A stretch of DNA of 64,000 bases from assembly GCA_006503475.1 (NCBI GenBank), contig RSEH01000075.1, positions 106,633-170,632 on the forward strand. Reading direction: 5' to 3'. A program made the translations under genes and the position numbers. Shown here piece by piece: positions 8,543 through 58,463 of this stretch; positions within the stretch are counted from its first letter, which is position 1; every line of letters begins with the position of its first letter. The notes below the pieces were generated by a model. That model searched no databases. It was not told where the DNA came from and saw only the letters and a program-made list of their open reading frames with translations. The stretch is from Stentor roeselii (taxonomy: Eukaryota > Ciliophora > Heterotrichea > Heterotrichida > Stentoridae).

Positions 8543-9379
8543 CTATGTTAATCTAATTAAAGGCTTCGCACATTTTACTCCTAGTACCGCAAAAACATGC
8601 TTCCAGTGCCCACTCGTCACATTAACCACTCCAAGATTTTTCAAAGTAGCTTCACTACAGTCACTAGCACTAATAAGTAAAGGACGTGATGGTATTTTCT
8701 CAGTCAATGGTGTTTCTACCAACCCTGGCTGCAAAGCCACAGCATGAGAACCTTCACTGACAAGAACTTCTGTGAAATTCAAGTCAAAAGATTTACTTGA
8801 ACAGTAAATTATGAAACCTTTCAAATATCCTTCAGTAACAGCAGAGCTTAAGTTAATAATCCACGAGTTTTCCTTATTTCTAATATCTTTTTCATATAGT
8901 CGTGAAAGGAAAACCACCGGAAATATGTTCAAAGATAATTGATTCTCTATCTCAACAGTCGTTTGTTTAGCGAACTCCTTAATAATCGCTGTTCCTACGT
9001 TATTGACTAGAATTCGAACATCAAGACCTTTAGTCTGATCGTAAATATCTTGGAAGAAGTTAATTGGATCTAAATGGCAAAGAGAAAAATCTTTTACTAT
9101 ATTTTTCACTTCAATTCCATATTTCGCATTCATGTCTCTAGCACATTTCAATAGCTTTTCTGGATTTCTACCTACTTGAACGATATTCAAACCTCGTTTA
9201 GCAAGTGATTCAGCAAAGCCTTTTCCAATTCCATCAGTGCAAGCAGTCACAATTGCCCAGGTTCCAGGAATTAGTTTTGGTTCTTTGGCAAATATCAACG
9301 CTTTAAGATAATTACTGATAGTAAGAATAATTCCAAGAATCCAAGAAAAGCCTAAAATAAAAGCAAGTGATTCTATCAT
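8543..9379 (-). CDS. Short-chain dehydrogenase, HSD17B12-like, tandem copy 1
   Basis: 278 residues. An N-terminal membrane segment (IESLAFILGFSWILGI) is followed by an SDR Rossmann fold. The cofactor glycine motif is the unusual TACTDGIGKG in place of TGxxxGxG; NNVGT matches the NNAG position; the catalytic Ser is in INLSS and the Tyr-Lys pair in YCSSK. The layout matches the 17-beta-HSD12/KAR family (ER 3-ketoacyl-CoA or steroid reductases). Substrate unknown. First of four same-strand copies that share long identical stretches such as TDGIGKGFAESLAKRGLNIV. Confidence 0.85.
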   Translation of the reverse strand: MIESLAFILGFSWILGIILTISNYLKALIFAKEPKLIPGTWAIVTACTDGIGKGFAESLAKRGLNIVQVGRNPEKLLKCARDMNAKYGIEVKNIVKDFSLCHLDPINFFQDIYDQTKGLDVRILVNNVGTAIIKEFAKQTTVEIENQLSLNIFPVVFLSRLYEKDIRNKENSWIINLSSAVTEGYLKGFIIYCSSKSFDLNFTEVLVSEGSHAVALQPGLVETPLTEKIPSRPLLISASDCSEATLKNLGVVNVTSGHWKHVFAVLGVKCAKPLIRLT

Positions 9380-9430
9380 GGCTCAATATTTAATAAAAGA
9401 CATAATTTAATATAATTCTTCATAAAACTA

Positions 9431-10285
9431 TTAAAAGATCCTTAAAAAGTACATAAAACTTATCAGTGATGCTGATGATCTGATAAGAAGAATAGTAATC
9501 ACATGCTTCCAATGCCCGCTTGTCACTTGAACCACTCCTAAAGTCCTTAAAGCTGACTCAGAGCATTGGTTTGCAGTGATCAGCAAAGGTCGAGTCTTCC
9601 TGTGACGAGTCAAAGGGGTGTCTACATAAGCAGGTTGAAGAGCCATTACACGCTTTCCTTCACTTATCAACACTTCACTGAAAACCAAGTCAAAAGCCTT
9701 ACACGCTGAATAAATAGTTTGCGATTTTATTGAATAATGAGCAGCGACAGAACTTAAATTAATAATCCAAGAATTTTCTTTGTTTTTCAAATCATTTTCA
9801 TAAAGTCGTGTAAGGAAAACTATTGGGAATAGGTTTAATGATAACATGTTTAACAAGTTTTCATTTTTCAAATCAGATAAAGCTCCTGGACGAGAGGTTC
9901 CCACATTGTTAACAATTATTTCAATGTCAAGACCTTTGGTTTGGTTGTGAATGTCTTGGAAGAAGTCGATTGGATCTGAATGGCAAATTGAAAAGTCTTT
10001 CACAATGTTTTTCACTTCAACTCCGTATTTCTTTTTCAGGTCTTCTGAACATTCTGATAGTTTTACAGGATTTCTTCCTACTTGTACTATGTTTAAACCT
10101 CTTTTAGCAAGGGACTCTGCAAAGCCTTTCCCGATTCCATCAGTGCAAGCAGTGATGACTGCCCAGGTTCCAGGAGTTAACTTGGGTTCTTTTGACAGGA
10201 ATAAAGGTTTGATGTAGTTAGTTAGAGTCATCAGCAACTCAACAACTTGACATGCTCCAAAGATGAAAAAAATCAATTCAATCAT
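9431..10285 (-). CDS. Short-chain dehydrogenase, HSD17B12-like, tandem copy 2
   Basis: 284 residues from the Met aligned with the other copies (MIELIFFIFG); an in-frame Met lies three codons upstream. Same architecture as copy 1: membrane anchor, TACTDGIGKG, NNVGT, INLSS, and the active-site YSACK. The C-terminus carries a further hydrophobic stretch (ILLIRSSASLISFMYFL). Only 51 bp separate its stop from the start of copy 1, so the promoters are very short. It reads as an intact oxidoreductase of the ER-anchored SDR type; substrate unknown. Confidence 0.85.
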   Translation of the reverse strand: MIELIFFIFGACQVVELLMTLTNYIKPLFLSKEPKLTPGTWAVITACTDGIGKGFAESLAKRGLNIVQVGRNPVKLSECSEDLKKKYGVEVKNIVKDFSICHSDPIDFFQDIHNQTKGLDIEIIVNNVGTSRPGALSDLKNENLLNMLSLNLFPIVFLTRLYENDLKNKENSWIINLSSVAAHYSIKSQTIYSACKAFDLVFSEVLISEGKRVMALQPAYVDTPLTRHRKTRPLLITANQCSESALRTLGVVQVTSGHWKHVITILLIRSSASLISFMYFLRIF

Positions 10286-10380
10286 AAATATCAACCTGCA
10301 TTAAATTCACCAACATGAATAAATAAAAACAATTTATTAAAATCAAAATTTTCATAATCAACTAAAATTTCTTAAAAACT

Positions 10381-11214
10381 CTAAAAGATTCTAAAAAAAG
10401 TGACTGATGTAAAGATATACATCCAAATAACATGCTTCCAGTGCCCATAAGTCACATTAACGACTCCAAGATTTTTCACTGTAGATTCACAGCATTCTTC
10501 AACACTAACCAATAATGTACGATCAGGTACTTTTGCAGTTAAAGGAGTATCTACCCATCCAGGCTGTAAAACCATTGCATGCGAGTTCTCACTGATTAAA
10601 ACTTCTGTAAAATTTTTATCAAACATTTTCGTTGAATTATAACAAATTAGTCCTTTTAGCAAAGATTCAGCATATACTGAACTTAAGTTGATAATCCATG
10701 AATTTTCTTTTGTTCTTATGTCTCTTTCGTAAAGTCGTGTGAGGAAGACTATTGGAAACACGTTTAATGACATATGAATCTGAATGTCTTGATGAGGTTG
10801 TTTAATAAATTCAGAAAAAGTACCAGTCCCGACGTTGTTTACAAGAATTCGAATGTCTAATCCTTTGGTCTGGTCATAAATGTCTTGAAAGAAGTGAATT
10901 GGGTTTAAGTGACTGAGAGAAAAGTCTTTTACTATGCTTTTCACTTCGACTCCGTATTTGATGTTCAAGTCTTTTGCGCACTCGGCTAGTTTTGAAGAGT
11001 TTCGACCTACTTGAATTATGTTTAGACCTCTTTTTGCGAAGGATTCAGAAAAGCCTTTACCTATTCCTTCAGTGCATGCGGTTATGATTGCCCATGTGCC
11101 AGCAGTGAGTTTTGGTTCTTTTGCTAATAATAAAGGTTTGATATTATTGAAAAGAGTGAATAAAACCTTTAGAATTTCACATAGTCCTAAGGCAAAAAGA
11201 ACTATTTCAATCAT
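10381..11214 (-). CDS. Short-chain dehydrogenase, HSD17B12-like, tandem copy 3
   Basis: 277 residues from the Met at 11214 (MIEIVLFALG), which aligns with the starts of the other copies; the frame is open for 23 more codons upstream but that part has no counterpart. It has the anchor, the cofactor motif TACTEGIGKG, NNVGT, INLSS and the active-site YNSTK. The most diverged of the four around residues 150-160, where KQPHQDIQIHMSLN replaces the usual stretch. Likely an ER-anchored NAD(P)H reductase; the specific substrate cannot be told. Confidence 0.84.
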   Translation of the reverse strand: MIEIVLFALGLCEILKVLFTLFNNIKPLLLAKEPKLTAGTWAIITACTEGIGKGFSESFAKRGLNIIQVGRNSSKLAECAKDLNIKYGVEVKSIVKDFSLSHLNPIHFFQDIYDQTKGLDIRILVNNVGTGTFSEFIKQPHQDIQIHMSLNVFPIVFLTRLYERDIRTKENSWIINLSSVYAESLLKGLICYNSTKMFDKNFTEVLISENSHAMVLQPGWVDTPLTAKVPDRTLLVSVEECCESTVKNLGVVNVTYGHWKHVIWMYIFTSVTFFRIF

Positions 11215-11563
11215 ATTTATAACCATGAATTTAATCAAATGAAGAACACTTGATATTTTAATATCAATTTTTATATTACTCAAAGGTTTGATTAGTTTTT
11301 ATGATGATTTCAAGTTTAATGAAGTAAAGTTAACATACAACAAATTTAAAATATTTCAATGAATCTAGAATTTTGATTCAAAACAATTAAAATTGTTTTA
11401 TTTCTGTCAATTTATGTATACTTAGAGATTTTCAGTTTTTTCTTTATTACTTTGATACTTATAAGCAGACCGATTTCTTATTTATAATTTCTTCAAGGAA
11501 CCTTTCACATATTATCTAATTGATTATTGAAGATTTATATTTTTCATAATGTTTAAGTATAAT
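11215..11563. other. Intergenic gap in the dehydrogenase array
   Basis: AT-rich spacer of about 350 bp between copies 3 and 4. No gene or relic recognised. The other two spacers of the array are 51 and 95 bp. Confidence 0.5.
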
Positions 11564-12427
11564 TTATATTGATTTAACCAAACCAAGCATGCAAGCTAAT
11601 AAGATCAAAGGTCTAGATACTTTGATAACTAAAATCACAATAACATGTTTCCAATGACCACTTGTCGCTTGAGCACTTCCACATTTCTCCAAAACCGCTT
11701 CAGAGCACTGACCAGGACTAATCATCAAAGGACGAACTTTCCTAGAGCTAGTCAAAGGAGTATCAACAAAAGCAGGCTGTAGCGGAACAACATTTTTCCC
11801 TTCACTAATAAGTACTTCACTAAAAACCAAATCAAAAGCTTTAACAGCAGAATAAACAATTTTCCCTTTCAATAAAAATTCAGCAGCAACTGAACTTAAA
11901 TTAATAATCCACGAATCCTGTTTATTCATCAAGTCCTTCTCAAATACTTTCGTCAAAAAAACCACTGGAAACAAGTTTAAACTAAGTTGATTTCCCAATT
12001 CTTCATTCTTGAGTTCTGTTAAAGTTCCAAAATAATTAGTTCCAACATTATTCACTAAAACTCTTACGTCAAGGCCTGCTACCTGATCATAAATATCTTG
12101 AAAGAAGAAAATTGGATCTGAGTTGCAAAGAGAAAAATCTTTTACAATATTTTTCACCTCAACTCCGTATTTCAAATTTAAATCACGAGCACATTCTGAT
12201 AATTTGACTGGATTTCGACCGACTTGCACAATGTTCAGACCTCTTTTAGCAAGTGACTCAGCAAAGCCCTTCCCGATTCCATCAGTGCAAGCAGTGATGA
12301 CAGCCCATGTGCCTTGATGCACATTTAACTTCCTACCAAATATAACAGGTTTCAAGTAGTTCATAAAAGTGAGAAAGAACTCAACAATCCAAGTGATTCC
12401 TAAAATAAACCCAAAGATCTCAATCAT
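11564..12427 (-). CDS. Short-chain dehydrogenase, HSD17B12-like, tandem copy 4
   Basis: 287 residues. Anchor segment MIEIFGFILGITWIVEFF, cofactor motif TACTDGIGKG, NNVGT, INLSS and the active-site YSAVK. It keeps a longer hydrophobic C-terminus (LVIKVSRPLILLACMLGL) like copy 2. All four copies keep the Ser-Tyr-Lys triad, so none looks dead. Its start is 150 bp from the divergent RPA32 gene. Confidence 0.85.
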   Translation of the reverse strand: MIEIFGFILGITWIVEFFLTFMNYLKPVIFGRKLNVHQGTWAVITACTDGIGKGFAESLAKRGLNIVQVGRNPVKLSECARDLNLKYGVEVKNIVKDFSLCNSDPIFFFQDIYDQVAGLDVRVLVNNVGTNYFGTLTELKNEELGNQLSLNLFPVVFLTKVFEKDLMNKQDSWIINLSSVAAEFLLKGKIVYSAVKAFDLVFSEVLISEGKNVVPLQPAFVDTPLTSSRKVRPLMISPGQCSEAVLEKCGSAQATSGHWKHVIVILVIKVSRPLILLACMLGLVKSI

Positions 12428-15478: not shown

Positions 15479-18400
15479 ATGGAAAGACGAGTTGAAGAGT
15501 TGCTGAAGTTGCTTCATTCTCTGGCATTCACTGATTCAGACAGCATCGTGAATGAAATCCGTCAAATAGTCCTATCCCCAAGCATATCAATGCCTTCAAT
15601 GTCATTTTTTTCATCAAAACTATTGAATTCTGAGGTGTCACTTCTTCAGTTCATCTTAAAAAACAGGACTGAAAGCGACCGCCTCCTGTGGAAGACGATG
15701 TCTAACACCCTGACATTAGTCTCTGATTACATCCAAGAACGAGGCGCGCGTATTGCTGAATACGCCGTCGAAATCAAAGACACTTGCCTCCAACTGATGG
15801 CTTCAAGTACCAAGTCAAGCATGGTGAAAGAAGCGGCTTTAGGCCCACTTATCAGGTTGTTAGAAGTCTTTTCGCCAGGGAAGTTAAAAGAAATTCTCGA
15901 CCCTCGAGAGCTGTTCAAGATCCTTCTCGACCACAAGCTTCGATATGAAGAAAGAACTTTAGGGTCTAATCTTAAAGGAGCTATTTTTGAGATGCTCGGC
16001 CTGCTTGTTAATAGTTTTCCGGAAGAACTAGATGATAGGGTGTTAGAACTGCAGAAAATCATGCTGGTCCGCATCAAGGAACAGCTTTATAAAGGAAGTA
16101 AGACTGAAGAAAAAACAGTTGCTGGGATATTGAAAGGATTTGCTCATGCTTTAAAAGCTTTTAAATATGAAGAGCATGATATGAAAGAGATCTTTAATTA
16201 TATCAAAGCGCTTTTGACACCTATTCAATCCGGAAGGTACACTGTTTTAAAAGCGAGTCTAAAAGTGTTATGTGAAAACTCGAACTTGTTTAAAGAAATG
16301 ATTCATGCTTATAGCCAGGAAGTCCTTCGGGAACTTTTCAACCTGATCAAGTCGAACAACTCGAAAGTGAAGTACCTGGCTCAAGAGACCTCTGAAAACG
16401 TTCTGGCAGTCCTGGCTGAAGTCGTGGTTGACTTGCAGGACGTTACTTGTTTTGAATACACTTTGAAAATGCTTACCAGTCAAATCGCTTCAAAGTCTCC
16501 AGAAATCATTCAAAACACGATCAAACATATCGGAGTCTTCAGCAAGGCCATCGCAACTCTCAAGTCAGAGGATTACTTAAAAACCCTTCTTTCAACTATC
16601 ATCGACCTCAGTAAAGAATCGATTACTTCAGAAAGTGAACCAGAGGACTTCAAAGGAATGATTTTACGTCAAAAACGTTTGAATTCTTTACTTACAGCGT
16701 ATTCTGACATCGCTCGTAGTTTAAAAGCAGTGCCTGAGCCAGCTTTACTGCATTTTTCTGAAGTGGCTATTGAGATCTTTCATAAAAATGCCACGTGGCA
16801 TAAGAAGTACCGTCAAAAACTTTACAATTCTTTAGCGCAGCTTTTTGCATCACTTTACACTCACAGCGAGACCTTTACTCAGTGGATTCGCGTTTTTATT
16901 GTCAAGGCAATGAGACAGCTGCTTGTCTTTGATGACTCGACTTCGCGCATTGAAGCTGCTGGAAAGCTTTGGCTTGGTGTCTTGCAACAGGAATGTCTTA
17001 CTGAAAACGCTTTGGTCGTCTTGACTGATGAAATTTTAAGGTTTTTTTATCAGTTGTTATTGACTTTGGACCTCAATTATGCCACTTTTGAAGGGAATTT
17101 GCAACCGAGTAATCCTGATGATCAGCAGGTTTTGTTTCAGGCTTCGGAGTTTTTGGCTATTTTGTGGCCGCAGATTTGTAAAAGGACGGATTCTTGGATT
17201 ATGCTGTTTTTTACTGCTGTTAGTAGGAAAATTGGAGAACTTCCTTTGCTCCCTTCGCTTTATAACATGGCAAAAGTAGCCCTAAAAGTATGCGACTTAA
17301 ACTCATACTGTGACTCAGACCTCCAATGCAAGCAAACAATTCTAGAAATGATAAAAACCGTAATAAACTCCATGCAAAACTTCCAAGACGCCCTATTATC
17401 AAGTTGTATCGAGTTATGCCTTTCAGTTCCAATCAGTATAGTCTATTCCCCAAACTTCAACAACCTAAGCCTATTCCAGCCAGTAGTGATGCAAGCTTTA
17501 TCCTTAAGCCTGAGTTACCTTCCATTAGCCCACACAGTAATAAACACTTTGAACTCCTGGAGAAAAAAAATCCCAATGAGCTCTTTAAAATCAATTCTTC
17601 CAACAGTCCTTCCATCCCTAAGTCCATTTTTAACTCTCGACAAAATATCTCAAGAAATCGCAGGTCAAGAAGAACTAACAAAAACTCGTCAAAAAAAGCG
17701 AACCGTCGCTTTTCGTATCTTTAAATTCATCGGTTCCTTAGGAGGTGAGAGCCACCACATAATAGACGAGAAGACCTCTCACTGCTCATTCGTTGACTTC
17801 CAAAGTGACCTTCAAATGACGATGCGTCTGAACAAGCACAGCTTAGAAGTGAATTTCGACCAAGTCCTTCCAAGAGTTCTTCATCTAGCCGAGAAGTCAA
17901 ACGACTCAAGGACAAAAATCGCTTCATGTGAATTACTGCACGCTTTGATCCTTTTCACAATCGGAAAAAGAACTGAAAGTGAAGTTCAGTTTGACAAGAT
18001 CTACAGTCAAGTCTTTCCAGTGGTTTATCGACTTGCGACTGACCTGGACCCGGTTTCTCGTCAGTTGTTTGAGCCTCTCACGAAGCAGCTGGTCAGGTGG
18101 TTTGCGAAGAAGTTTCCTTTTGATAGTGTGGAAACACAGGCACTGCTCATAGCTTTAGAAGCAAGTGTCTGTTCACCGTCAAGCGCGCTGAGGAACTTGG
18201 GGTCAGACTGCATCGGCGAGTACTGCAAGTATTCAGTCATTAACACCCTGGACCCCCTCCCGCCATTTAAACAGATTTTGAAAAGGATTCAGTCATTTTC
18301 AACACATCCTCAAGTTGAAAAGCGTCGGGCGGCAGTTCAGTGTTTTTCTAAACTTTTACTTCCAATGAGTCAAAATGAAGTACTTTTAAGTCGGTTTTTA

Positions 18401-21400
18401 ATGGAATTTACGCATGAAATGTTTGTGGCTTGCAAACTGGCACATTATGATAATAATGAAGAAATATTGAAAACTTGTAAAGAGTGTCTTGGTGATTTGA
18501 AAATAATTATTCAGAGAAAAGTTAATTTGTTGATTGGGACTTGTGATGAAAGAACTTTTCATAAAAATATTTTTGAGTTTATTGAATGGCTCTGGGACTT
18601 TTGTAAGAGACCGGAAAGGATTGTTAGAGAAACTGCTCAAGAGTATTGGAAGGATTTGGTTATTGTTTCTAGATTTGATGTGAAAAAATGGAAAATTCGG
18701 AAGAATTTTATTAGGGAGGTCCAGGATGATGTATTGGATTGTGTTGTTCTTGAAGGTGTTATTGAGTTTTATCTGTGGGTTAGTGAATGTGGACTTTTTT
18801 CGTGGAAAGGTGATGAGTTGGCTGATGTGGTGAAGAAGTTTTTGAAAAGTGACAAAAAAAATGTGAGTTGTCAAGACTCAATAAGAACATTTCTGGCAGT
18901 TCTAAAGCACAACCAATACTTCCCCATGAAAGAAGTAGACCACCAGCTCCTACTCGAAATCTTAATATCCCCTCAAAACCTAGGTATATACTCAAACGTA
19001 GAAACAAAAGAAGTAAACTCACTATACTCAGAAGTCTGTTCAAAATCAATCGAAACTCTAAAAAACCTCGGAATAGACAGCGCAGCTGTTTTAAAATCAT
19101 GGGACTCAGTCGACTTAGAACACGAGAGAAACTTAAAACTCGCTTTACAAGGAATCCAATTACTAGTCAATTCTCAAGACTCTCTAAAAACCACTCTAAG
19201 CCCATTTTTTACCCAAGTTCTAGAAAAGTCGATGCTTGAGCATTTTTTAAAGCATTCAACCAGTCGCCGAGGAAAGGTCATTTTAGACTTTCTAATAAAA
19301 GTGCAGATCTCAAAAGACTGTTTACGAATTCTTTTAAAATCTTCTTCAGTCATGTCGCAACATTCCGAGCAGATCTTTGAGTTCATCCTTCATTCAATGT
19401 CCGAACATCTCGAAACCCTTTTCCTTGCCTTTGCCGACAAGCCAGCTCAATTATTGGTCTTTTTGGTGCCGATCCTAGAGAAGGGAAAGTTGCTTATCGA
19501 GCAGAAGTCAATCGATTTGCGGACTTTCATTAAAACCTTCCTGAAACAAGCTGTGCCACTTTTCGCTGCACTTGCATTGGTGCCTTCTTCAGAGATAAGT
19601 TTAGGAGTCATTCGGACTTACTGTATTTTTTTGGAGTACTCGAAGGACTTGTCGGTGTTTAATGAAGGTGTTCAAGAAATTGTTTCAACTAGTTTTTATC
19701 CTCATGTTTTGCAGATGCTTCAAAGGTTTTTAGCAACTGGACAGCATTTTTCAGTTCAAAAAGAAGCTCTTAGGCTTTTAGTCGCTGTTTGGGAGGTCTT
19801 CGGTGGGCAGGTTATGAAAGACTTGAGGATTGAATTACAGGAAATTCAAGTTTTTTATACTTTTCAGTCAAGTTCACCTGGTTCTGCTTCTAAGCAGGCG
19901 AGTGAGTCGGAAATGATGGTGAAGTCTTTTTTAGAGATGTTTTTAAGGGTTAGGACTTTTGAGTGTCTTGAACTGCTTTTTGCTTTGATTAGGGAGCAGA
20001 AGTCTTCTTTTGAGGCAGAACTGAAGCATGTTTTAAATGAATTTATAAAGTTTCAAGTGACTCAAGACGGAAAAGAGACTTTTTGCAAGGTGTTAAAGGT
20101 CTTTAATGATGCAGATAGTGATAAAGGAATGACTGATAACGTCAGATGGGGACTTGCTACAAGGGTCATTGTGCCTTTTATTGACTTCGTTGATGAGTAC
20201 CTGGCAGAAGACTTCATGATCCTCACTTGCAAAGAACTCATCTCCAGGTTAAACGATGTGAAATTCACACAAATCTTTGAAGCAAAGGACTATTTTCTGC
20301 TACTCCGAGAAAAAACATTTATTCTCATGATTGTTGAAAGGTTTTTAAATAAAGTCCCTGCTTCTCGTTTCAAGGAAAATGTTCATAAAGCCATCTTTGG
20401 ACCCTCTGCGCAAGGAAACGAGTTGACTAAACAAATCATAACTTTTTGTGATAAATACCGCAAGGATCGATTAGAAAATAGCGAAATTATTGAAAATCTT
20501 CCAAATTCTTCTGAATATATTCGTGAATTCTTGCAGAACTCTTTCGCTTGCTTGTTGACATGCATTCGAAAGACCCAGAGCCAGGAAAAGGTTTTTTTTA
20601 ACTTTCTTTTTAAAGACACTAACTGGAAAAATCTTATTGAGGACCGAGAAGATTTCAACTTTAAGCCACAGTCGAATTACTTTCAAAAAGACCTGGCCCC
20701 GGCGCCTTCAGAGAAAATTTCAACACTTTACATCTCGTCTTCTCTTTTTTCACAGGAACTTGCAATGCTTCGACCTGAAAAAAGAGACTTTTTCGACCAA
20801 AATGAGACTTTTTCTAGTCAAAGTTTGGACTTGGAACCTGATTTTCTTAATTCTTTGCCGATTATGAAACCTTTACTTGAAGTTATTGAAAAAATGGAAA
20901 ATTTGTACCAGTCAGTTGAAATGCCTCAGTGGATGCAGTGTCTTCACTCGTGTCTTTCAGATAATTGCTTTGTTTCTATCAAACTTTTTGTTATTAAAGT
21001 TGTACTTAATAGGCCGAAGTCTTTTGAAAGATGGGCTGGGCTTTGGCTTGCACCTATTTGTGCTGTCATGTCGGGAAAGAATGGTGGGAAAGGTTTTCAT
21101 TATTTTTTAAGAGATACTTGCACCCTGCTTCTTTATGACTGGCCCGACGTATCAATCAAGGGCAAAGAAAAAGAATGCAGTAAATTCCTCAACTACTTAA
21201 TAAAAGTCGTGGCAGACACCAACGAAAAAATCTTCAAATCAAACCTCCAACTAATTCAAGGCCTTCTAAAAAAATGGAAGACCCCAGTCGACCACAGTTA
21301 TCTAGAAGGAATGATGAAGAAAACAGTAAATGACGACGAAAACAAATCCTCAGTAATCTGGAAAATTTCAGGAGTTCTAATCTTCGGATACTGCATCGAA

Positions 21401-24400
21401 GAAAACGTGAAAGTTCTTCAAGACGGGAAAGAAAATTCAGAGTCTCTCGACGATTGGCTACTAAAATGTCTAGACGTGAACCGAAGAGCCGTAGTGACTG
21501 CTGCGGCTGAAGTAATCGGAAAGCGACTTCGACAATCCCCAGCCTTAGCGACAACTTTACTGGAAGTACTTAAAAAGAAAGAATCAAAAGACATCGGGGT
21601 CTATGTAAACATCTTAGAAAAAATCGCTTTAAGTTACCCTCAGATCTTAGACCATAAGCAAGTAAGTGGAAAGGTCAACTACTTGCTAGCTTCTTTAAGT
21701 GGAAACGTAAGAGCTAGTCTCTTACAAGCGATTTTTCACTACTGTCTTTACTTGACCAGCCAGAACTCACTGAACAGTCTTCCTGATATCTGCGAGTACC
21801 TCAACAGAGAAAAGGAAAGAATCGCGAATGACAACGAGGACAGTCATCGACTAGCTCTACTGAAACTCATTCAAAGTCTTCAAGATTTCATTGAAAATCC
21901 CAGCGTTAAACGTCTTCTTTCAGGGATTTTTCTTCAACTAGGGCCTTTCGCAGGGGCTTCAAGTGCTGAAATCCGAAAGGCACTTTACGAAGTAATGCAA
22001 CAAGCTTATCGTACTTCACTTTTCTTAGAAGACCCAGTTGCTATCAGGTCGAAATCTCGAGAAATCTTATTAAAAGGTCTAACTGATACAATTCATAGTG
22101 AATCTATTTTAGACTTTTGGAACTCACAAGAAAGACTTTCTCTTGACCCTCAAACAAGAATGTTTCAATGTTTAAGCGAACTTTACACTGCTGAATGTGA
22201 AGAACTATGGCTCGTTGTTTCCTCTCATTTAATCCTCAGGCTTTGTCGAATAAGCCCTGAATACGAAAAAATGCTTTTTGAGTTACCTTTAGACAACTGT
22301 GAATTTACCCAAATCAACTTCAACATCTCAGGAAAAAACAGTCTTCCGATGACTCCAATGTTTTCTCCTAGTTACTTCCAACAAGAAGGTATCAAAAGAA
22401 AAGAAAACGCTGCTTCTTCTCAGGGTGGCCAAAGCCGCCCTCAAAGAATTCGACATTTCGCTGAATATTCACAAGCTAGCTTTGAAGAAAGACGAGAAAA
22501 AGCTCTTAAAATACAGATGGAACGAGTTGAGCAGAAAATAAAAGAACAACGTGAAAGAAGAGGAAATATTTTAAGGACTTACAGAGCAGGAGAACTGCCA
22601 GACATCCAAATAAAATCTTCAGATATCCTCGGCCCTCTCAGCAACCTGGTCCTTCTCGACTGTGAAACCGCTTCGCACATCTGGGTATCTCTCTGCCCGA
22701 AGCTTTTCACACATCTCGAAGTGGAAAGTCGTAAAAAAATCATTCAAGCAATAAACCGAGTACTTGAAATAAGCCAAAACTGTAACCCAGACGTGATTTC
22801 TTGCATGCATCGCACTCTTCGAGAACTAGTCAGTCAAAACGGAGACTTTGCCAGGTCTTTAAACGCGAAGCATATTTATTCAAGTGGTGTGAAAAGTATG
22901 TGTTATCAAAGTGCAATAATGTTACTTCAAGAGTGTCTTTTAAAGTTCGACCCAGGTCCTTTTAATGCTCACAGCGGAAATGAAGAGTCTCGAGTCACTC
23001 ATGGAACTAGCGACTTCTGGATATACCTGGCGAAAGTCTATGAAAAAATGGGAGACCTGGACTCGGTGAAGGGACTTTGGGTGAAGATCTTCAGTGAGAC
23101 TGCTCCGAAGACCCTGGAAGACATTCGCAGTGCTTTTCAGAGTAAGTCGATGGGTGACTTGACTACCGCGAATGAGGTTTATTGCAAGGTGCTTCCAGTG
23201 GTGTCGAAAGAACTGAGAGGAATGATTAAAAGTGAATATGAGGACAGTCTTGCTCATTTAGGAAAGTGGAGCACTTTGAAAGAAGAAGTTGTCGGAACGA
23301 ATAGTATCAAGTTGAAGTCTTTGCTGAGATTAAACCAATTCGCTGAGTTGACTGAAGTGGTTCAAAGTTTGCCTTCTTCAAGTCTTTACACCCGCTTTCC
23401 ATATGAGATGAGTCTTTTGAACGTCACACAAGACGACACTGACCGAGCCAGGTACTACATGGACCAGGATTTTTCAAGATTTGTTGAAAAGTGGCAGGCG
23501 TTGAACCCACTGTCTTACCTTGCAAGACATAAACTGGTCCAAAAAGCTCAAAAAATTCATGATTTAGCTGAATTTCTATCAATCAAAGAACCAAAACGAG
23601 GAGAAAGCACAGAAGAGTACCTTGAAAGAGTTGCACATGTCGTAAAAGACTGGCAAAGTCGACTTCCTTCTTCTGCTCTTGATGATCTGGCAACTTGGGA
23701 AGAAGTCCTCTTTGCTCGAGTACTTTTCTTTGATAAGCTTAAAGCTTCTGTGGATTTTGAACCTTTCGGCCTTGACGAGTTTTCTTCTTTTCTTTATGCG
23801 AAATTTTCGGAATTTCCTTTGAAACTCGGATTGTTTCAAGTGGCTGAAGTGATGTTGAAAGAAGCTTTGAATAGAAGAACAGACCCAAGTCGAGTCGCTT
23901 TCACGATTTTAGCACCAGTTCTTAAATTAAGGGCAAAAACTCTTAGTTTCAATTCAGTTGAATCAGAAACATCGAGAATTGTCAACTATTTCAAAAGTCT
24001 CACTGATAGACTTCATGCGAATTCTGATTTAAACAATGAAAATGCGGTTTTACTTTATGCACAACTTCAGAATTACTTGATTAAAGCTCTTAGTGATCGT
24101 AGAGATTGTGGCGGTTATTTAAAGGAATCGACGAAACAAGCTTTTGAATATTTTGATAAGGTTAAAAAAGAGTTTCCTTTAAAATTTTGTCGCTTTTGTG
24201 ATGCGATTTTAAGAAAATTTGAAGAAAATCAAGAAGCGCTTGGATTTAAGCTGGGGGATATCGGCTTGGCTCCTGAAAATCTTGCCCAGGGTGTTATTTT
24301 GAATTGCTTTTCTGCGATGAAGTTGAATAGTCAGAGGGCTCATGATATGTTTCCTAGGCTTATATCGTTGCTTAGGTATCAGAATACTGAAAAGGTTTTT

Positions 24401-26311
24401 GAAGAACAACTTAAAACCTTACCGGAATGGATGCTTATTCGATGGATTAGTCAGATTTTGTCGATTTTTGATCAGCCTAAGTGTGATGTGTTTTTAGAGA
24501 TTATTGGAAGATTGATTAGGAGCTACCCTCAAGTCTTTTTCTATTATTTCAAGACTTTCACATCAGTAGATTCATTCCAGTCCTACTGCAAGATCTTCAA
24601 AGGTTTCAAGTCCAAGACCTGGCAAATGGCTGAAGAGATGATATCAAGTCTTGCTTACCTTCAAGACTTTGTAGACGCTCTCGATCAACTAGTGAACCCG
24701 GAGCAACGCCTTCGTTATTACTTGGACCTGATCAATGAAGGAGCCACGTCAGGGGCTTCATCAGAGTTTTTCAGGTTTTTGGCTTCAGAGATGCAGGAAA
24801 ATTTGCTGAAAAGTCGATGTCCTGGGACTTATAATAAAAAATTCGCCTCTGAGTGGGAAAAAATCTTTACAACTGTTTTAGGTGGGCCACTTTCTAACCT
24901 GGCTGGAAAGAATACTCAGGAGCTGGCGTTATTTGTTGAAAATTGTAAGGGAAAAATCAAGGAAAATCCTATTGATAAACCTATGACTCTGATAAGCGTG
25001 TTTTCTGAGTGGCTTTCAGACTACTCACTTGATCCTTATACACAAGAGTTGATTGACCTGCCATGGACCAACACAGGTTTCTGTCAACCAATGCAAGAAA
25101 AGCAGGTTCGAGTAGTATCCTTCGACCAAAACGTATTAATCCTAAGATCAATCCGAAAGCCAAAGCGAATCGGAATCCACGGTTCCGACGAAAAGCTTTA
25201 CCACGTAATGATCAAAGGTGGTGAAGACCTGCGGTTAGACCAGCGCATTCAGCAAGTTTTCACAGTAATGAACCGAATTTTTCAGTCAAGTCCCGAATGT
25301 GCGAGGTCAAATTTGTCACTAAAGACTTTTGAAATCGTTCCAATCACGAAACGCTTGGGTCTTTTAGAATGGGTAAGCAACACTGAACCTCTTCGAAGCA
25401 TCATTGACTTTGAACTTGACAAGCACTACAAAATCAAAGGAATCGGACAGACTCATGCGAATCATCTGAGAAAAACTTGGCTTAGGTCTTTAGCTGCTGC
25501 TTCTGATGATAATTATGTGCAGCATCATATGATTGCACTTACTAAAGACTTTACTAGTGTTGTGAATAACTTTAAGACACATGAAAAGTCGATTCCTTGG
25601 GATTTGATCAGGCAAAGTTTACTTAATATGGGCCGTACTCCTGAAAGTTTTCTCTACTTTCGAAAGAAATTCATAGACTCTCTAGCAACTCTAAGCATCG
25701 CAGGGTACATAATCGGTTTAGGCGACCGTCATCTAGACAATTTTCTCTTAGACAGATCAGACGGTAGCTTAGTTCTAATCGATTTCGGAGTATCCTTCGG
25801 ACAAGGCATCAGTTTAGGAATTCCCGAATTGATGCCATTTCGACTAACCCGTCAATTCCAAAGTGTTTTTTCTCCAGAAGGTCTAGAAGGCCAGTTCCGT
25901 CACTCAATGCTAAACAGTCTGAAGTCTCTTCAAAAGAACCAAAATACATTATTAGACTGTTGCGAAGTCTTCATAAACGAGCCTCTTCAAGACTGGATGC
26001 GAGGATCTTCCATCGACAAGAACATTCCATTAAAAAAGTTAAGAATTTTAAAACAAAAGTTAAACGGTTCAAACTCCGGGCATATAATGACTCAAGAGTT
26101 GCAAGATAGCAAACATTTGAACATGGTAAGAAATAGTTAGAACTACTTTTCTAGTCTTTTACAAGTCGTTCTTGGAAGTGAAGGGTCTTTGAGAAGGACT
26201 CTTCCTGATTCAGGTTTAAGTCCTGAACAGCAGGTCGATGTTTTGATTGAACATGCGACAGACCCGAATATTTTAGGAAGGACTTGGATCGGATGGTCTC
26301 CAATGGTTTAA
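15479..26311 (+). CDS. PRKDC: DNA-PKcs-type PIKK kinase with FATC tail in a second exon
   Basis: About 3605 residues. Exon 1 is 15479-26125; a 15-nt intron (GTAAGAAATAGTTAG) is at 26126-26140; exon 2 is 26141-26311. Without the intron the protein ends at a TAG and loses the FATC domain; with it the end reads LSPEQQVDVLIEHATDPNIL then GRTWIGWSPMV, a full FATC. The first ~2300 residues are HEAT-like helical repeats, then FAT, then a PI3K-like kinase domain: catalytic loop GDRHLDNFLLD (~3415), metal site IDFG (~3435), and the DNA-PKcs signature PELMPFRLTRQ. That signature and a FATC close to the DNA-PKcs form separate it from ATM, ATR, TOR and TRRAP. DNA-PKcs binds Ku at double-strand breaks and drives end joining. 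A role in developmental genome rearrangement is possible by analogy only. The kinase residues are intact. Confidence 0.92.
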
Positions 26312-50491: not shown

Positions 50492-51526
50492 CTAATATCC
50501 CCATGCTTGAAAGATGCACTCAGGGTAACGATTTTTCATTCTTCTTGCAAACTTTCCTTTATAGAACCAGTCTCCCTCATCTCCTTGAAGAGGTTCAGCA
50601 ATTTTCAAGTTCAAGTCCCAAACATCCACTATTTAAATGAAACATGCTTTGATATCTCTTACCTAAATTTATTTTACCTCCTTCGTTCTAAGTTACGATC
50701 TTAAATGAAGTTCACAATCTTCTATTTAGGTTACCATCTTCCTTGTAAGTTACCATCTTGATTGTAGTTTACCATCTTTGTTTGAGTTACTGCCTTTGAT
50801 GCAGATTACTCCCTCGATTAATGTTACAATCTTTTAGAAATTACAATAAAAACAATATTTTCCATCATTGGAAAATAGTAGTTCTCGATAGTTATTCCGA
50901 ATAGCTTCTTCATTACAACCATAAGTGTCATAAATTTCTCCGAAATTTTCCAAGAAAAATTTTATCTTTTCTTCCTTACCCAAGGATTGAAGTTCTAAAT
51001 AAGCATAACCTTTTACTCTTTCTAAGTCTTGCAAGGTTCGTTGAAGGCTGCCAATGTCTGTGAGGATCTTCTCTTTTTCATCAAGTTTTTGTTTTAAATC
51101 ACTTAATTCAGCATTCAAATTGATTTTTATGTCTTTTGATATCTGTCCTACCTCTTCTACTAAAAAAGTGATTCTTTCCTTTGAAAATTGAAACAATGCT
51201 AGCTCTATATCAAGTTCAAACTCAGAGATGTTCTTCATATTTTTCGCTGTTTCTTTCAAGGTTTTTATTGCGTCACTTGAGGCCTTTTTTAAAGCTGTGA
51301 TTACTTTTTCAGTATCTTTTACCATTTCGATAATGTAATTTTCGATTGTTGATTTTAGTGTAGTTGGAGATACTACAGTGAATTTCTCTTTATTTATGCA
51401 GGTAAGTTTGTGATCTGTTTCATTTTCGTGAGTTTTACTGTGAATATCGCACCAATATGTAATTCTGCAGCAATCTCTACAAGAATTTTTTATTTCCATG
51501 GAACAACCGTCGTATGTGCAGGACAT
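50492..51526 (-). CDS. B-box/coiled-coil/WD-like protein with microexon array, paralogue A
   Basis: 282 residues after removal of twelve introns. Exon 1 is 50845-51526 (start MSCTYDGC, chosen because paralogue B has MSCYIEGC at the same place); ten 3-nt exons lie between 50644 and 50830; last exon 50492-50628. N-terminus: B-box-like zinc site (C-x4-C...C-x2-C-x5-C-x2-H-x3-H-x5-H, ~2-40); coiled coil ~55-180; then a single WD-like blade SNDGKYCFYYW...LDVWDL whose middle is encoded by the microexons (YWSNDDDYRAL); tail ARRMKNRYPECIFQAWGY. If no intron were removed the protein would stop at CNF. The total spliced length is divisible by 3 and the join is in frame. Function unknown; B-box plus coiled coil suggests a scaffold. 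Only one blade is seen, far short of a WD propeller. Confidence 0.7.
50629..50844 (-). repeat. Array of 12 tiny introns separated by single-codon exons (gene A)
   Basis: Minus-strand order. Introns: 50831-50844 (14 nt), 50813-50827 (15), 50794-50809 (16), 50776-50790 (15), 50757-50772 (16), 50738-50753 (16), 50719-50734 (16), 50700-50715 (16), 50681-50696 (16), 50663-50677 (15), 50647-50662 (16), 50629-50643 (15). Triplets between them: ATT GGA GCA ATG ATG ATG ATT ATC GAG, none between introns 10 and 11, then CAT. Every element begins GT, ends AG and has A at position 10. All splits fall after the first base of a codon. On the plus strand it looks like an 18-19 nt imperfect tandem repeat starting TTAC. 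Confidence 0.75.
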
Positions 51527-53997: not shown

Positions 53998-54994
53998 CTA
54001 GCGATCCCATTTTTCATATATGCACTCAGGATATAAATCCTTCCATCTTCTTGCATAAACTTCATCGTTTCGATAATTTTGCTCATTAGCTTTGCATTCC
54101 TCGGATTTTTTTGACTCCAAGTTCCAAACATGTACTATATAGATGATACAGTCTACTATATCGATTACCTAAATGTAGATAACAGTCTTTATGGAGGTTA
54201 CTGCCTTTGATATATTTTACAGTCTTCGATGTGGATTACTATCTCAGTTGTAGGTTACTGTCTTTGATGTAGATTACAGGCTTTGATTCAGGTTACTCCC
54301 TTCAATTTAGTTCACAATCTTAATCTTTCGTACCTTTATGATGATTACAATGAAATAAGTATTTTTCATCACTTGATATGAAAAATTCTGTTGAATATGA
54401 ATATATCTTAACGAATCTCCAATTTTTTCTCACATAATTACATTTTTCTTTAAACTTCATTTGGTTGAAACCTAAATAGATATAACCTGGCGAGATTCCC
54501 ATTTCCTTTTGCTCTTCTTTTTCTTCTAATCCTGCCAAAATATTTAAGGATCTGCTTCTTTCAAGTATTTTTTGTTGTAATTCACTTATTTGACTTGGAA
54601 AATTGATTTTTATGACTTCAGAAATAATTCCAGTTTGAGTAATTAGACAATTAATAATTTCTGTATGAAAATCAGGCACTTTAAGATTAGAAATACTTTG
54701 AATATTTCGATTTTCAATTTTAAGATTTTGGATTATTTTTTTGCAAGTCTTCTCCAAAGAATGAATTATTTCTTGAGTAAATTTTTGAATCTGTCCGATA
54801 TATCTATGTATTAGAATTTTCGCTTCTTTGAATTCAATTGAATCATTTTCTCCTTTTTTCAAAATCCTTGGATAATGATCTGTTTCTTCTGAGTGCTTAT
54901 ATACTGGATGATATTCACAAAAATATATCTTTGGATTACAATCATCGCAAACAAAGCAAAGTTCATTCCTACAGCCTTCAATATAGCAAGACAT
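53998..54994 (-). CDS. B-box/coiled-coil/WD-like protein with microexon array, paralogue B
   Basis: 269 residues after removal of twelve introns. Exon 1 54349-54994 (MSCYIEGC), nine 3-nt exons between 54150 and 54318, last exon 53998-54134 (137 nt, exactly as in paralogue A). N-terminus: B-box-like Cys/His site (FCEYHPVYKHSEETDH); helical middle; WD-like blade SSDEKYLFHYW...LHVWNL with microexon-encoded part YWTYNNCNYL; tail ARRWKDLYPECIYEKWDR, clearly homologous to the tail of A. Unspliced, the frame runs to KGTKD and stops inside the second intron. Similarity to A continues on both sides of the array, which argues that both flanks are translated as one protein. Function unknown. Confidence 0.7.
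54135..54348 (-). repeat. Array of 12 tiny introns separated by single-codon exons (gene B)
   Basis: Minus-strand order. Introns: 54334-54348 (15), 54319-54333 (15), 54300-54315 (16), 54281-54296 (16), 54262-54277 (16), 54243-54258 (16), 54224-54239 (16), 54205-54220 (16), 54187-54201 (15), 54169-54183 (15), 54153-54168 (16), 54135-54149 (15). The first two touch, and the ninth and eleventh-from-end pair at 54169/54168 also touch; elsewhere a triplet lies between: ATT GGA CCT ACA ATA ACT GCA ACT, then ACT. All elements start GT, end AG and have A at position 10. Typical 16-mer: GTAATCTACATCAAAG. Confidence 0.75.
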
Positions 54995-56677: not shown

Positions 56678-58463
56678 CTAGATAAGAAATAAATCTTTAT
56701 TATATTGAAATTTTTTCAGCAAACTGATATCTAGACAAGAATTCCAGTGACTCATTCTTGAAGTTATCAAATACTTAATATTCATTGATTCAGTGTAATA
56801 TTCTTCTATTTCATCCCATGAGTTAAAGCTATCAAAAAATAGTAAGATTTTTTCTTTTATTTTTCCAGTATTAAGTCTTGTTTTAATTAATTTATCTGCA
56901 TTTTCATTTTCAGGGACTTCGATAAGATTACCTAATCTTAAAATATCCAATTTCATATTAGCTGAGCCTATTTGAATTATAATATCATATACCTCTGTAT
57001 ATTTTTTGCAGTATTGGAGTGCTAGGCATGTTTTTCCCATCCCAGCGACCCCACTATACTGATAATATTCTTTTCTTTAAATATTTTATGTATATTTTCA
57101 CATTCTGTATCTCTATATATCTGTTGTTTAATTAGCTTATCAAAATATTTTATGTTGTTGCTACTTATTATTTCATTATTTTCTGCATTTCTATCTTCTA
57201 TAATAATTTTTACTCTTTTATCTTTTTCATTTAATCTTCTAATCTCATAAATTTCTTTTGCTCTTTCACTAACTATTGTATCCTTATTATTTTTAAGTAC
57301 CTTTAAAACTGCACACATTTTTTCTCTGATTTCCCAGTTTTGATAATCACTTAACTTGAAAACTTCTTCAACAATATCAACCACATATTCTTATGAAATT
57401 CTTTTCTCAATAACACAGTCCTGAGCATAGTCCAATAAAATATATTTTCCTTTCCAATCCAATATATTTATTTCCTTGAATTCTTCTTGCAACAGTTCCT
57501 TTCTTTTTTGCTGAATATCACTTGAATTATCCTGAATCATTTCAAAAATTTCGAATTTGAGCATATAGTATGAAGTTTGCTGTAAAATTATTTCGTATTT
57601 TCACTGATAACCTTGAAATTCCATTCAAAAAAGGAGCAGGGTCGAAGTTCTTCAAGGACTTGCAGATACCCCATATTTCCGAAGATTCATTTATAATTGT
57701 TTTCCAGTACTGTTGCAAATTCTTAGCCTTCGCGATGAGTCTCCTAACGACTTTCAACTCCAAGACGACTGATATCTCTGGTAACTCTCTTTCTCTTTTT
57801 TTAACTATCAGGATTATTTCACTTAAATCCTTAAGTATCTTTTCCTTCTGTTCTTTCAGAAAAAGAGGACCTTCTCCATTCTTCATAATATGCACCATAA
57901 CGAAATTTTCTTATTCTTTTGGTTAATTTCTGACGATTGTAAGTGAAAGAACAGCTTTTCCATATATTTGGGTTCATTATTTTTTCGAAGAGGTTCTGAA
58001 CGATCATCATAGGAAGGCCACATTCATAAGGTCTGAACCTGGATAGTTCATTTATTATTTCTTGTTCAAAATACCCATTCATCATGTCCATCGTGATTTT
58101 AGAGGTTATCTCTGCTGCTTTTTTCTGGTTATTGTTAAGAAGCTGTTGGTCTAAGTTGCCAAATCTCACTAAAAGATTTTTTCTGTCTTTCTCAATCTGA
58201 ATTTGACGAGCCGTAATGCTAGCTCGAAAAAGTCCTTGGTAAGTTTGTACCTCTAAAGTTTTCTGGTTGATATAAAGACGGCCTTTGAATAGCGATGGAT
58301 GATTTGCAATCCATAGTAAATCCTTAAAGCTAAAGCCTTTCAAGACTCCTTCCCATTCTCTTTTAGAGTCTTTATGTTGAACTTTAGCCTTGATTTGCTC
58401 ATTTTCAGCACTTATGCTCACTTGATATCCTGCTTTGAGCTCAAGTCTCTGAAACAAATACAT
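56678..58463 (-). pseudogene. Broken STAND/NB-ARC-like ATPase gene
   Basis: Read from 58463 downwards, four frames join into one protein-like sequence with breaks. Part 1 (58463 to ~57895): start MYLFQRLELKAGYQVSISAE, unknown domain. Frameshift near 57890. Part 2 (~57898-57546): helical (EILEVIL-like; NLQQYWKTIINESSEIWGIC). Frameshift in a T run near 57542. Part 3: QIRNFEMIQDNSSDIQ to CVIEKRIS, in-frame TAA at 57391-57393, then YVVDIVEEVFKLSDYQNWE to IISIVGS. Frameshift near 57045, exactly in the P-loop, then GMGKTCLALQYCKKY, a Walker B-like ILLFFDSFNSWDE and LITSRMS as in NB-ARC sensor 1. It ends at a stop at 56678 before any repeat domain. Intact homologues would be NLR-like signalling ATPases. 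None of the breaks is explained by a tiny intron. Confidence 0.65.

Follow-up and report, generated by a model that had tools for sequence, protein, structure and literature searches.

Predicted arrays of one-codon exons and 14-16-nt introns in a gene family of Stentor roeselii

A tiny-intron array in gene A

The minus strand of the window (the whole 64,000-nt stretch analysed, positions 106,633 to 170,632 of Stentor roeselii contig RSEH01000075.1, assembly GCA_006503475.1) carries a gene, here gene A, in which twelve consecutive GT...AG elements of 14-16 nt occupy positions 50844-50629 (Table 1). These are very probably genuine tiny spliceosomal introns of the heterotrich type, which would be excised one by one, with each intervening triplet read as a single codon in phase 1. 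The coordinates and counts given in the original prediction were re-derived exactly, while its ten 3-nt exons, the placement of every splice after the first base of a codon, the in-frame joining of the flanking exons and a spliced coding sequence of 849 nt (682-nt exon 1, ten triplets and 137-nt last exon) were confirmed. The spliced product comprises 282 codons plus a stop, giving a 282-residue protein, and the introns removed sum to 186 nt. The tally of twelve introns and ten exons stands, but left unmentioned that introns 10 and 11 abut at an AG|GT junction (50663/50662), with a zero-length exon between them. Any retained 16-mer would shift the frame, as had been claimed; retention of 15-mers can preserve it, with 147 of the 452 introns parsed across the family being 15-mers that lack an in-frame stop. 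The array had been placed in one gene, and is indeed present in gene A, but characterises a whole family, including a second copy in the window (paralogue B).

Table 1. Predicted features of gene A and paralogue B in the window
Feature	Position	Length (nt)	Strand	Remarks
Gene A exon 1	50845..51526	682	-	Cys/His-rich (B-box-like) N-terminus, coiled-coil-like middle, end ...DGKYCFY + codon base 1
Gene A candidate 13th intron	50995..51009	15	-	gttatgcttatttag; inside exon 1
Gene A intron 1	50831..50844	14	-	
Gene A exon	50828..50830	3	-	ATT
Gene A intron 2	50813..50827	15	-	
Gene A exon	50810..50812	3	-	GGA
Gene A intron 3	50794..50809	16	-	
Gene A exon	50791..50793	3	-	GCA
Gene A intron 4	50776..50790	15	-	
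Gene A exon	50773..50775	3	-	ATG
Gene A intron 5	50757..50772	16	-	
Gene A exon	50754..50756	3	-	ATG
Gene A intron 6	50738..50753	16	-	
Gene A exon	50735..50737	3	-	ATG
Gene A intron 7	50719..50734	16	-	
Gene A exon	50716..50718	3	-	ATT
Gene A intron 8	50700..50715	16	-	
Gene A exon	50697..50699	3	-	ATC
Gene A intron 9	50681..50696	16	-	
Gene A exon	50678..50680	3	-	GAG
Gene A intron 10	50663..50677	15	-	abutting intron 11
Gene A intron 11	50647..50662	16	-	
Gene A exon	50644..50646	3	-	CAT
Gene A intron 12	50629..50643	15	-	
Gene A last exon	50492..50628	137	-	..DVWDLNLK...KNRYPECIFQAWGY stop, family-conserved
Paralogue B exon 1	54349..54994		-	
Paralogue B array	54135..54348		-	12 introns of 15-16 nt, nine 3-nt exons, two zero-length junctions (54334/54333, 54169/54168)
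Paralogue B last exon	53998..54134		-	HVWNLESKK...KDLYPECIYEKWDR stop

The reading as spliced tiny introns and one-codon exons is strongly supported by 43 parsed arrays of the family, by restoration of the frame, by avoidance of stop codons and by an A at position 10 (A10) that the arrays have in common with introns of protein kinase genes. Architecture, frame, stop avoidance in the main set of arrays, the position-10 A, the family, the variability of its triplets and the turnover of its units can all be read from the sequence itself. Chains of at least four introns (14-16 nt, with exons of 0 or 3 nt), sought on both strands of the whole window, were restricted to the gene A array and positions 54348-54135. 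A chance origin of the gene A array was rejected, the longest chain in 5000 dinucleotide-preserving shuffles of its 216 nt comprising three introns, compared with the twelve observed. At the place of positions 51009-50995 in gene A, many paralogues have a 15-nt GT..AG segment with an A at position 10 that contains an in-frame stop, and for this reason exon 1 of gene A may contain a thirteenth intron there, in which case its coding sequence would measure 834 nt.

Elsewhere in the window, an unbroken ORF of 3553 codons (15479-26140, plus strand) has DNA-PKcs and PI3/PI4-kinase domains in Pfam. Two overlapping ORFs at 56678-57384 on the minus strand (..VSIVGSLGWEKHA / MGKTCLALQY..), which may be a single gene interrupted by a tiny intron, together resemble what we take to be a P-loop NTPase; a Pfam search gave no P-loop NTPase match. 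A tandem cluster of four similar ORFs at 8543-12427 (minus strand) presumably encodes short-chain dehydrogenases. ORFs of up to 3553 codons exist with TGA read as a stop, and TGA is therefore taken as one; three of twenty inspected ORFs end in TGA. The count of zero in-frame TGA codons is no test of this, because the ORFs counted were themselves terminated at TGA. There is no hint that TGA encodes an amino acid.

A family of arrays across the assembly

The search space was the assembly of 44.4 Mb in 522 contigs. Gene A exon 1 gave 145 matches there at E <= 10, many of which were weak, and a 37-residue last-exon peptide gave 112, 84 with E < 0.001. Chains of at least five introns occurred in 25 of the first 30 loci, and 40 further stretches were taken before parsing. 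A first parse with a strict penalty for the absence of A10 missed introns with the A at position 11, and this penalty was relaxed for a parse of 44 arrays in which exon length was free. Multiples of three accounted for 416 of the 423 internal exons in this parse (301 of 3 nt, 69 of zero length, 26 of 6 nt, six of 9 nt and the remainder longer). Four of the seven exceptions reflect missed introns (L016, L058, L038 and L046), two lie in L051 and one is a 2-nt exon of L048.

A second parse was made with no branch-point term and with exons held to multiples of three, its start and end points coming from the free-exon-length parse, and provided the main set of 43 arrays. Left out were L036 (a coding repeat), L062, L065, L066 and L070 (33-bp arrays), the first of two arrays in L041 and loci lacking an array, while the irregular L051, counted among the 44 arrays, was dropped from the 43-array parse onward. 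The main set contains 452 introns, of which 428 are 15-16 nt long (224 of 16 nt, 204 of 15 nt and 24 of 14 nt), and two, one each in L016 and L067, are GC-AG introns. Each array holds between five and twenty introns (median ten), and 21 of the 43 have at least five consecutive 3-nt exons, with a longest run of thirteen. Zero-length AG|GT junctions number 72, with at least one in 41 of the 43 arrays. Splicing leads into the conserved C-terminus in 41 of 43 by a motif test; L038 reads through to a variant C-terminal motif and L048 meets a stop.

The ends of the arrays are stereotyped. Forty of 43 arrays open with two abutting introns, the next exon starting with ATT in 35, and 31 of 43 have a zero-length junction near the 3' end; gene A opens with a single 14-nt intron instead of the abutting pair. 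The closing signature GTAAGGGATATAGAAG NNN GTATCATCTACATAG has 19 genomic matches with at most three mismatches (control 0), and the middle of the array in closer paralogues consists of 16-nt introns close to GTAACCTACATYGAAG. Among viral contigs, a collection from which records of the window's own genome may be excluded, the array pattern was unmatched.

Several relatives depart from this organisation. L048 (C469:7220-10499, minus strand) has approximately 20 nearly identical units, one 2-nt exon and a phase-1 stop, and may be classed as a pseudogene or an assembly error. In L065 (C516:1-2903), L062 and L066 (at the ends of C127) and L070 (C354:1-1268), the family N-terminus is followed by a 33-bp repeat whose unit corresponds to a 15-mer, an abutting 15-mer and 3 nt; spliced in phase 1, the L065 array gives seven stops in 33 codons. 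At approximately 853-1500 on the minus strand of L036, an 18-nt repeat (GGTCCTCCTGCTTTA..) imitates a GT..AG chain and, by eye, forms an open collagen-like coding frame; such a chain on its own can therefore mislead intron-chain finders. A similar Cys/His N-terminus, with no array found, occurs in L018, L021, L024, L034, L043, L047, L049, L050 and L052, the C-termini of which are presumably ubiquitin-like, zinc-finger or RING-like.

Splice signals and introns of kinase genes

In the parse made with no branch-point term, A occupies position 10 in 93 % of the 204 15-mers and 88 % of the 224 16-mers; in the 15-mers it is found at position 9 in 20 % and at position 11 in 25 %. The distance from GT to A is thus common to both length classes, which differ in the tail, and the position of this A marks it as the putative branch point.

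An independent sample of introns was drawn from protein kinases, used in place of a de novo background search by open-frame joining that gave too few candidates (12 clusters, seven with a single candidate). The kinase search of the assembly scored 135 matches among 1346 candidates. In-frame stops were present in 12 of the 135 scored domains, each of which was opened by removing one 15-nt GTA...AG segment, although trial lengths were 14-17 nt only and the sample is biased towards in-frame introns because it was selected by in-frame stops. By reading, all twelve kinase introns have A10. Natural variants of the arrays also agree with the proposed splice signals: a unit of L053 in which CT apparently replaces GT is read through within an open exon of 27 nt, and L012 has an 18-nt open exon at a site where others have abutting introns, while the deviating introns of L016 and L067 begin with GC.

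Stop codons at consecutive and skipped junctions

Since nearly all exons are multiples of three, loss of the whole array would also keep the frame, and stop avoidance is therefore the discriminating test of whether the triplets are translated. Without splicing, every one of the 43 arrays is closed in the continuing frame, and in 42 all three frames contain stops. When consecutive exons of the main set are joined, a stop arises at one of 380 junctions, in L048, the sole truncated protein. When one, two, three, four or five exons are skipped, stops arise at 16/337, 23/294, 18/251, 18/209 and 19/168 junctions, respectively (5-11 %). Shuffling the order of exons within arrays yielded 21.8 stops (SD 3.2), with a minimum of ten in 10,000 shuffles, against one observed in 483 codons. 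From the free-exon-length parse, 38 of the 44 arrays were read in each of the three phases, with four stops in 428 for phase 1, all within 21-42-nt exons holding missed introns, versus 14 and 41 of 390 for the other phases. The rarity of stops at consecutive junctions of the main set and their frequency at skipped ones therefore suggest that every codon is kept and translated, and consecutive joining in phase 1 seems to be what selection protects there.

A second set, intended as an out-of-sample test, comprised 20 last-exon matches outside the first. Eighteen of these have a GT..AG element ending 5 nt upstream of the conserved V codon, but only six of the 20 could be linked to exon 1 by a chain inside the retrieved piece, and numerous gaps departed from multiples of three when exon length was left unconstrained. 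Two members are particularly long when exons are held to multiples of three: L090 (G000:C493:800-1520), with 29 introns and in-frame read-through from exon 1 to the last exon, and L086 (C244:9473-10186), with at least 31 introns, both having mostly 0-, 3- and 6-nt exons and doubled abutting introns. Stop depletion was not reproduced in the second set, where 2/155 consecutive junctions gave stops compared with 2/137, 3/120, 4/103, 1/88 and 2/73 when one to five exons were skipped; by reading, both consecutive stops are ACT|AAG, in L093 and L100. The second set thus reproduces the architecture, not the stop contrast, and the stop test accordingly rests on the first set.

Alternative splicing, by which units would be skipped or retained to give many loop variants per gene, seems unlikely. 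The frame would survive skipping, nearly all exons being multiples of three in one phase, the introns that lack both a frameshift and a stop could be retained, and few stops occur at the skipped junctions of the second set. However, the stop frequencies at skipped junctions of the main set bear no sign of selection for such isoforms. The array might also be excised as one intron of approximately 216 nt, from the first GT to the last AG, leaving the triplets as untranslated relics, an outcome that the original prediction had set against its own reading. Direct joining of the flanking exons, both in phase 1, is in frame, and the second set has no stop contrast that would speak against it. The stop test in the main set nonetheless disfavours this possibility, each unit retains its own GT, A10 and AG, and the twelve independent kinase introns are all 15 nt long, within the bias and trial lengths given above; we regard excision as one intron as very improbable. 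Equally improbable is an unspliced 19-bp minisatellite downstream of the end of the gene, with the GT..AG pattern a by-product of the repeat unit. The units are similar and in tandem, and the coding repeat of L036 demonstrates that the pattern can be imitated, but unit length (18 or 19 bp) follows that of the intron, exons remaining multiples of three, at least 41 of 43 arrays lead in frame into a conserved downstream exon, stops are avoided across units, and A10 agrees with the kinase introns.

Variability of triplets and turnover of units

The triplets appear to change faster than the introns around them. Members with at least 78 % identity over the upstream 600 nt formed 25 pairs from 13 members, and in the 24 pairs used, which are not independent of one another, non-signal intron positions were 76 % identical (536 sites) compared with 37 % for the following triplets (135 sites). 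Loop length differs between close pairs by 3.7 codons on average and is equal in two of the 24. Within arrays, adjacent units have related introns (kappa 0.23, 0.09-0.37), indicating shared ancestry, whereas kappa for their triplets is 0.04 (-0.03 to 0.12; bootstrap P = 0.02 for the contrast). Among 113 adjacent unit pairs, 23 have introns identical at 15 or more of 16 positions, five of these 23 having the triplet in common. The string GTAACCTACATYGAAG NNN GTAACCTACA has 26 exact matches in the genome, seven of them from the L048 array, with 16 different triplets (reversed-pattern control 0). Diversified codons among like introns point to selection for a variable, perhaps ligand-recognising, loop. 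Diversifying selection on the triplets is what we infer here, and the likeness of the introns could partly reflect constraint or conversion.

Encoded proteins and genome location

Across twelve aligned spliced proteins, C3, C16, C19, C26, H29, H33 and H39 are invariant and the C-terminus is conserved. One of the twelve weakly matches an ANCHR-like B-box in Pfam (E = 0.0078, below the cut-off). The WD-like blade ascribed to the spliced C-terminal region could not be upheld, with no WD40 in the Pfam matches at E <= 1 for six spliced proteins, nor among the 25 families listed, of 61 in all, for the twelve. A profile aligns with RACK1 over positions 202-244 (E = 0.57), three unrelated chains scoring better. 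Variability and copy number would be consistent with a role of the family in recognition.

The arrays crowd near contig ends, with 24 of 30 on contigs of at least 60 kb lying within 15 kb of an end, against an expectation of 7.0 (SD 2.2; at most 17 in 20,000 draws), where contig positions were hand-entered and rounded and neighbours on the same contig are not independent. Heterotrichs use a (CCCTAACA)n telomere repeat, and contig C516 begins with such a repeat, which together with the tiny introns suits a Stentor-like heterotrich; it is the only one of seven inspected ends with telomere-like repeats, so that the crowding may partly come from assembly breaks at a repeated family. Removal from DNA during macronuclear development, as internal eliminated sequences, instead of from RNA, is extremely improbable: the source is a ciliate and DNA excision exists in ciliates (PMC9942856), but the GT..AG ends and A10 are as in the kinase introns, and the contig that starts with telomere-like repeats, at one of the seven ends inspected, is as macronuclear DNA would be.

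Comparison with known introns and microexons

In Stentor coeruleus, 92.8 % of the 8806 annotated introns are 15 nt long, most intron-bearing genes have a single intron, and most 15-mers have the branch-point A at position 10, most 16-mers at position 11; genes with more than eight introns are noted there, and the authors doubt that all of these are spliced (PMC9505925). The introns described here resemble those of S. coeruleus and Blepharisma stoltei (PMC9942806) as 15-16-nt GT-AG introns, and those of S. coeruleus (PMC9505925) in the fixed position of the A. They differ from S. coeruleus in occurring in arrays of five to twenty (as many as 31 in the second set), in being 16 nt long in about half of cases, and in that the 16-mers have mostly A10, unlike the mostly A11 16-mers reported (PMC9505925). 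Blepharisma reads UGA as tryptophan (PMC9942806), of which there is no sign here.

The micro-exon genes of Schistosoma have 10-20 serial short exons, mostly of 15 bp and multiples of three, with introns of 0.1-5 kb (PMC10526429). The present arrays are similar in their serial multiple-of-three exons and their diversified family, but most exons are one codon or of zero length and the introns are 14-16 nt, in contrast to the long introns of micro-exon genes. Recursive splicing at zero-nucleotide exons divides long introns (PMC13149111; also PMC8605326). The AG|GT juxtaposition is the same here, and a first splicing step would restore the donor (PMC13149111), although, unlike the cases described there, it is two introns of approximately 15 nt that abut. 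Exons as short as 1 nt in Arabidopsis APC11 (PMC4674806), two adjacent microexons in one rice gene (PMC8831610) and two 3-nt exons in the fungal lipS gene (PMC5639578) are reported as one or two per gene, unlike the serial arrays described here; the fungal and rice genes were the nearest serial cases met. Tandem duplication carrying splice signals can create a new intron (PMC4974935); compared with that single event, repeated duplication of a whole intron-plus-codon unit is envisaged here. Tiny introns, microexons, micro-exon genes and zero-nucleotide exons are thus each already known (PMC9505925, PMC10526429, PMC4674806, PMC13149111). No report of serial one-codon exons appeared among the papers listed by literature searches, judged by titles and the openings of abstracts, and the S. 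coeruleus genome paper may mention such genes. The arrangement may represent a new principle by which a protein loop is varied.

A model for splicing and diversification

Two conserved segments of the protein, ...DGKYCFFY and VWNLE..., would be separated by the residues that the one-codon exons encode. We propose that the spliceosome measures GT, an A at position 10 and AG within 14-16 nt, that is, pure intron definition by a fixed ruler; with definition by the intron only, exon size would be irrelevant, and even zero-length exons (AG|GT) would be tolerated. A spliceosome is far larger than a unit of 18-19 nt, so neighbouring introns would hardly be engaged together, and removal is probably sequential along the transcript, one intron at a time. 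Zero-length exons would fit stepwise removal as in recursive splicing, with joint excision as one 30-31-nt intron as the alternative. Splicing itself and the order of removal are, like the biological role, deduced from genomic DNA. Array length would change as 18-19-bp units of intron plus codon are duplicated or lost, and each such event would change one residue with no break in frame because the intron is spliced away.

A wider proposal, to which we give an even chance, is that this is a diversity-generating architecture, a minisatellite of spliceable tiny intron plus one codon in which the introns serve as disposable spacers and the codons make up a hypervariable loop, the family comprising some 80 or more genes that crowd near contig ends. 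If this is true, slippage would add or remove whole residues with no risk to the frame, the spliceosome would need almost no exon sequence, and the family would represent fast-evolving recognition proteins in a single-celled eukaryote.

Such genes are probably missed by standard annotation. The arrays bear on the limit of exon size in series, with introns of 14-16 nt set apart by a single codon or by none, five to twenty times per main-set gene and approximately 30 times in the longest parsed. If they are transcribed as proposed, splicing would be definable almost wholly by the intron, the arrays would offer a natural substrate for tests of splicing order and fidelity, and duplication of the unit would be a concrete route of rapid intron multiplication. 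It would also suggest a new evolutionary way in which a protein may be varied residue by residue.
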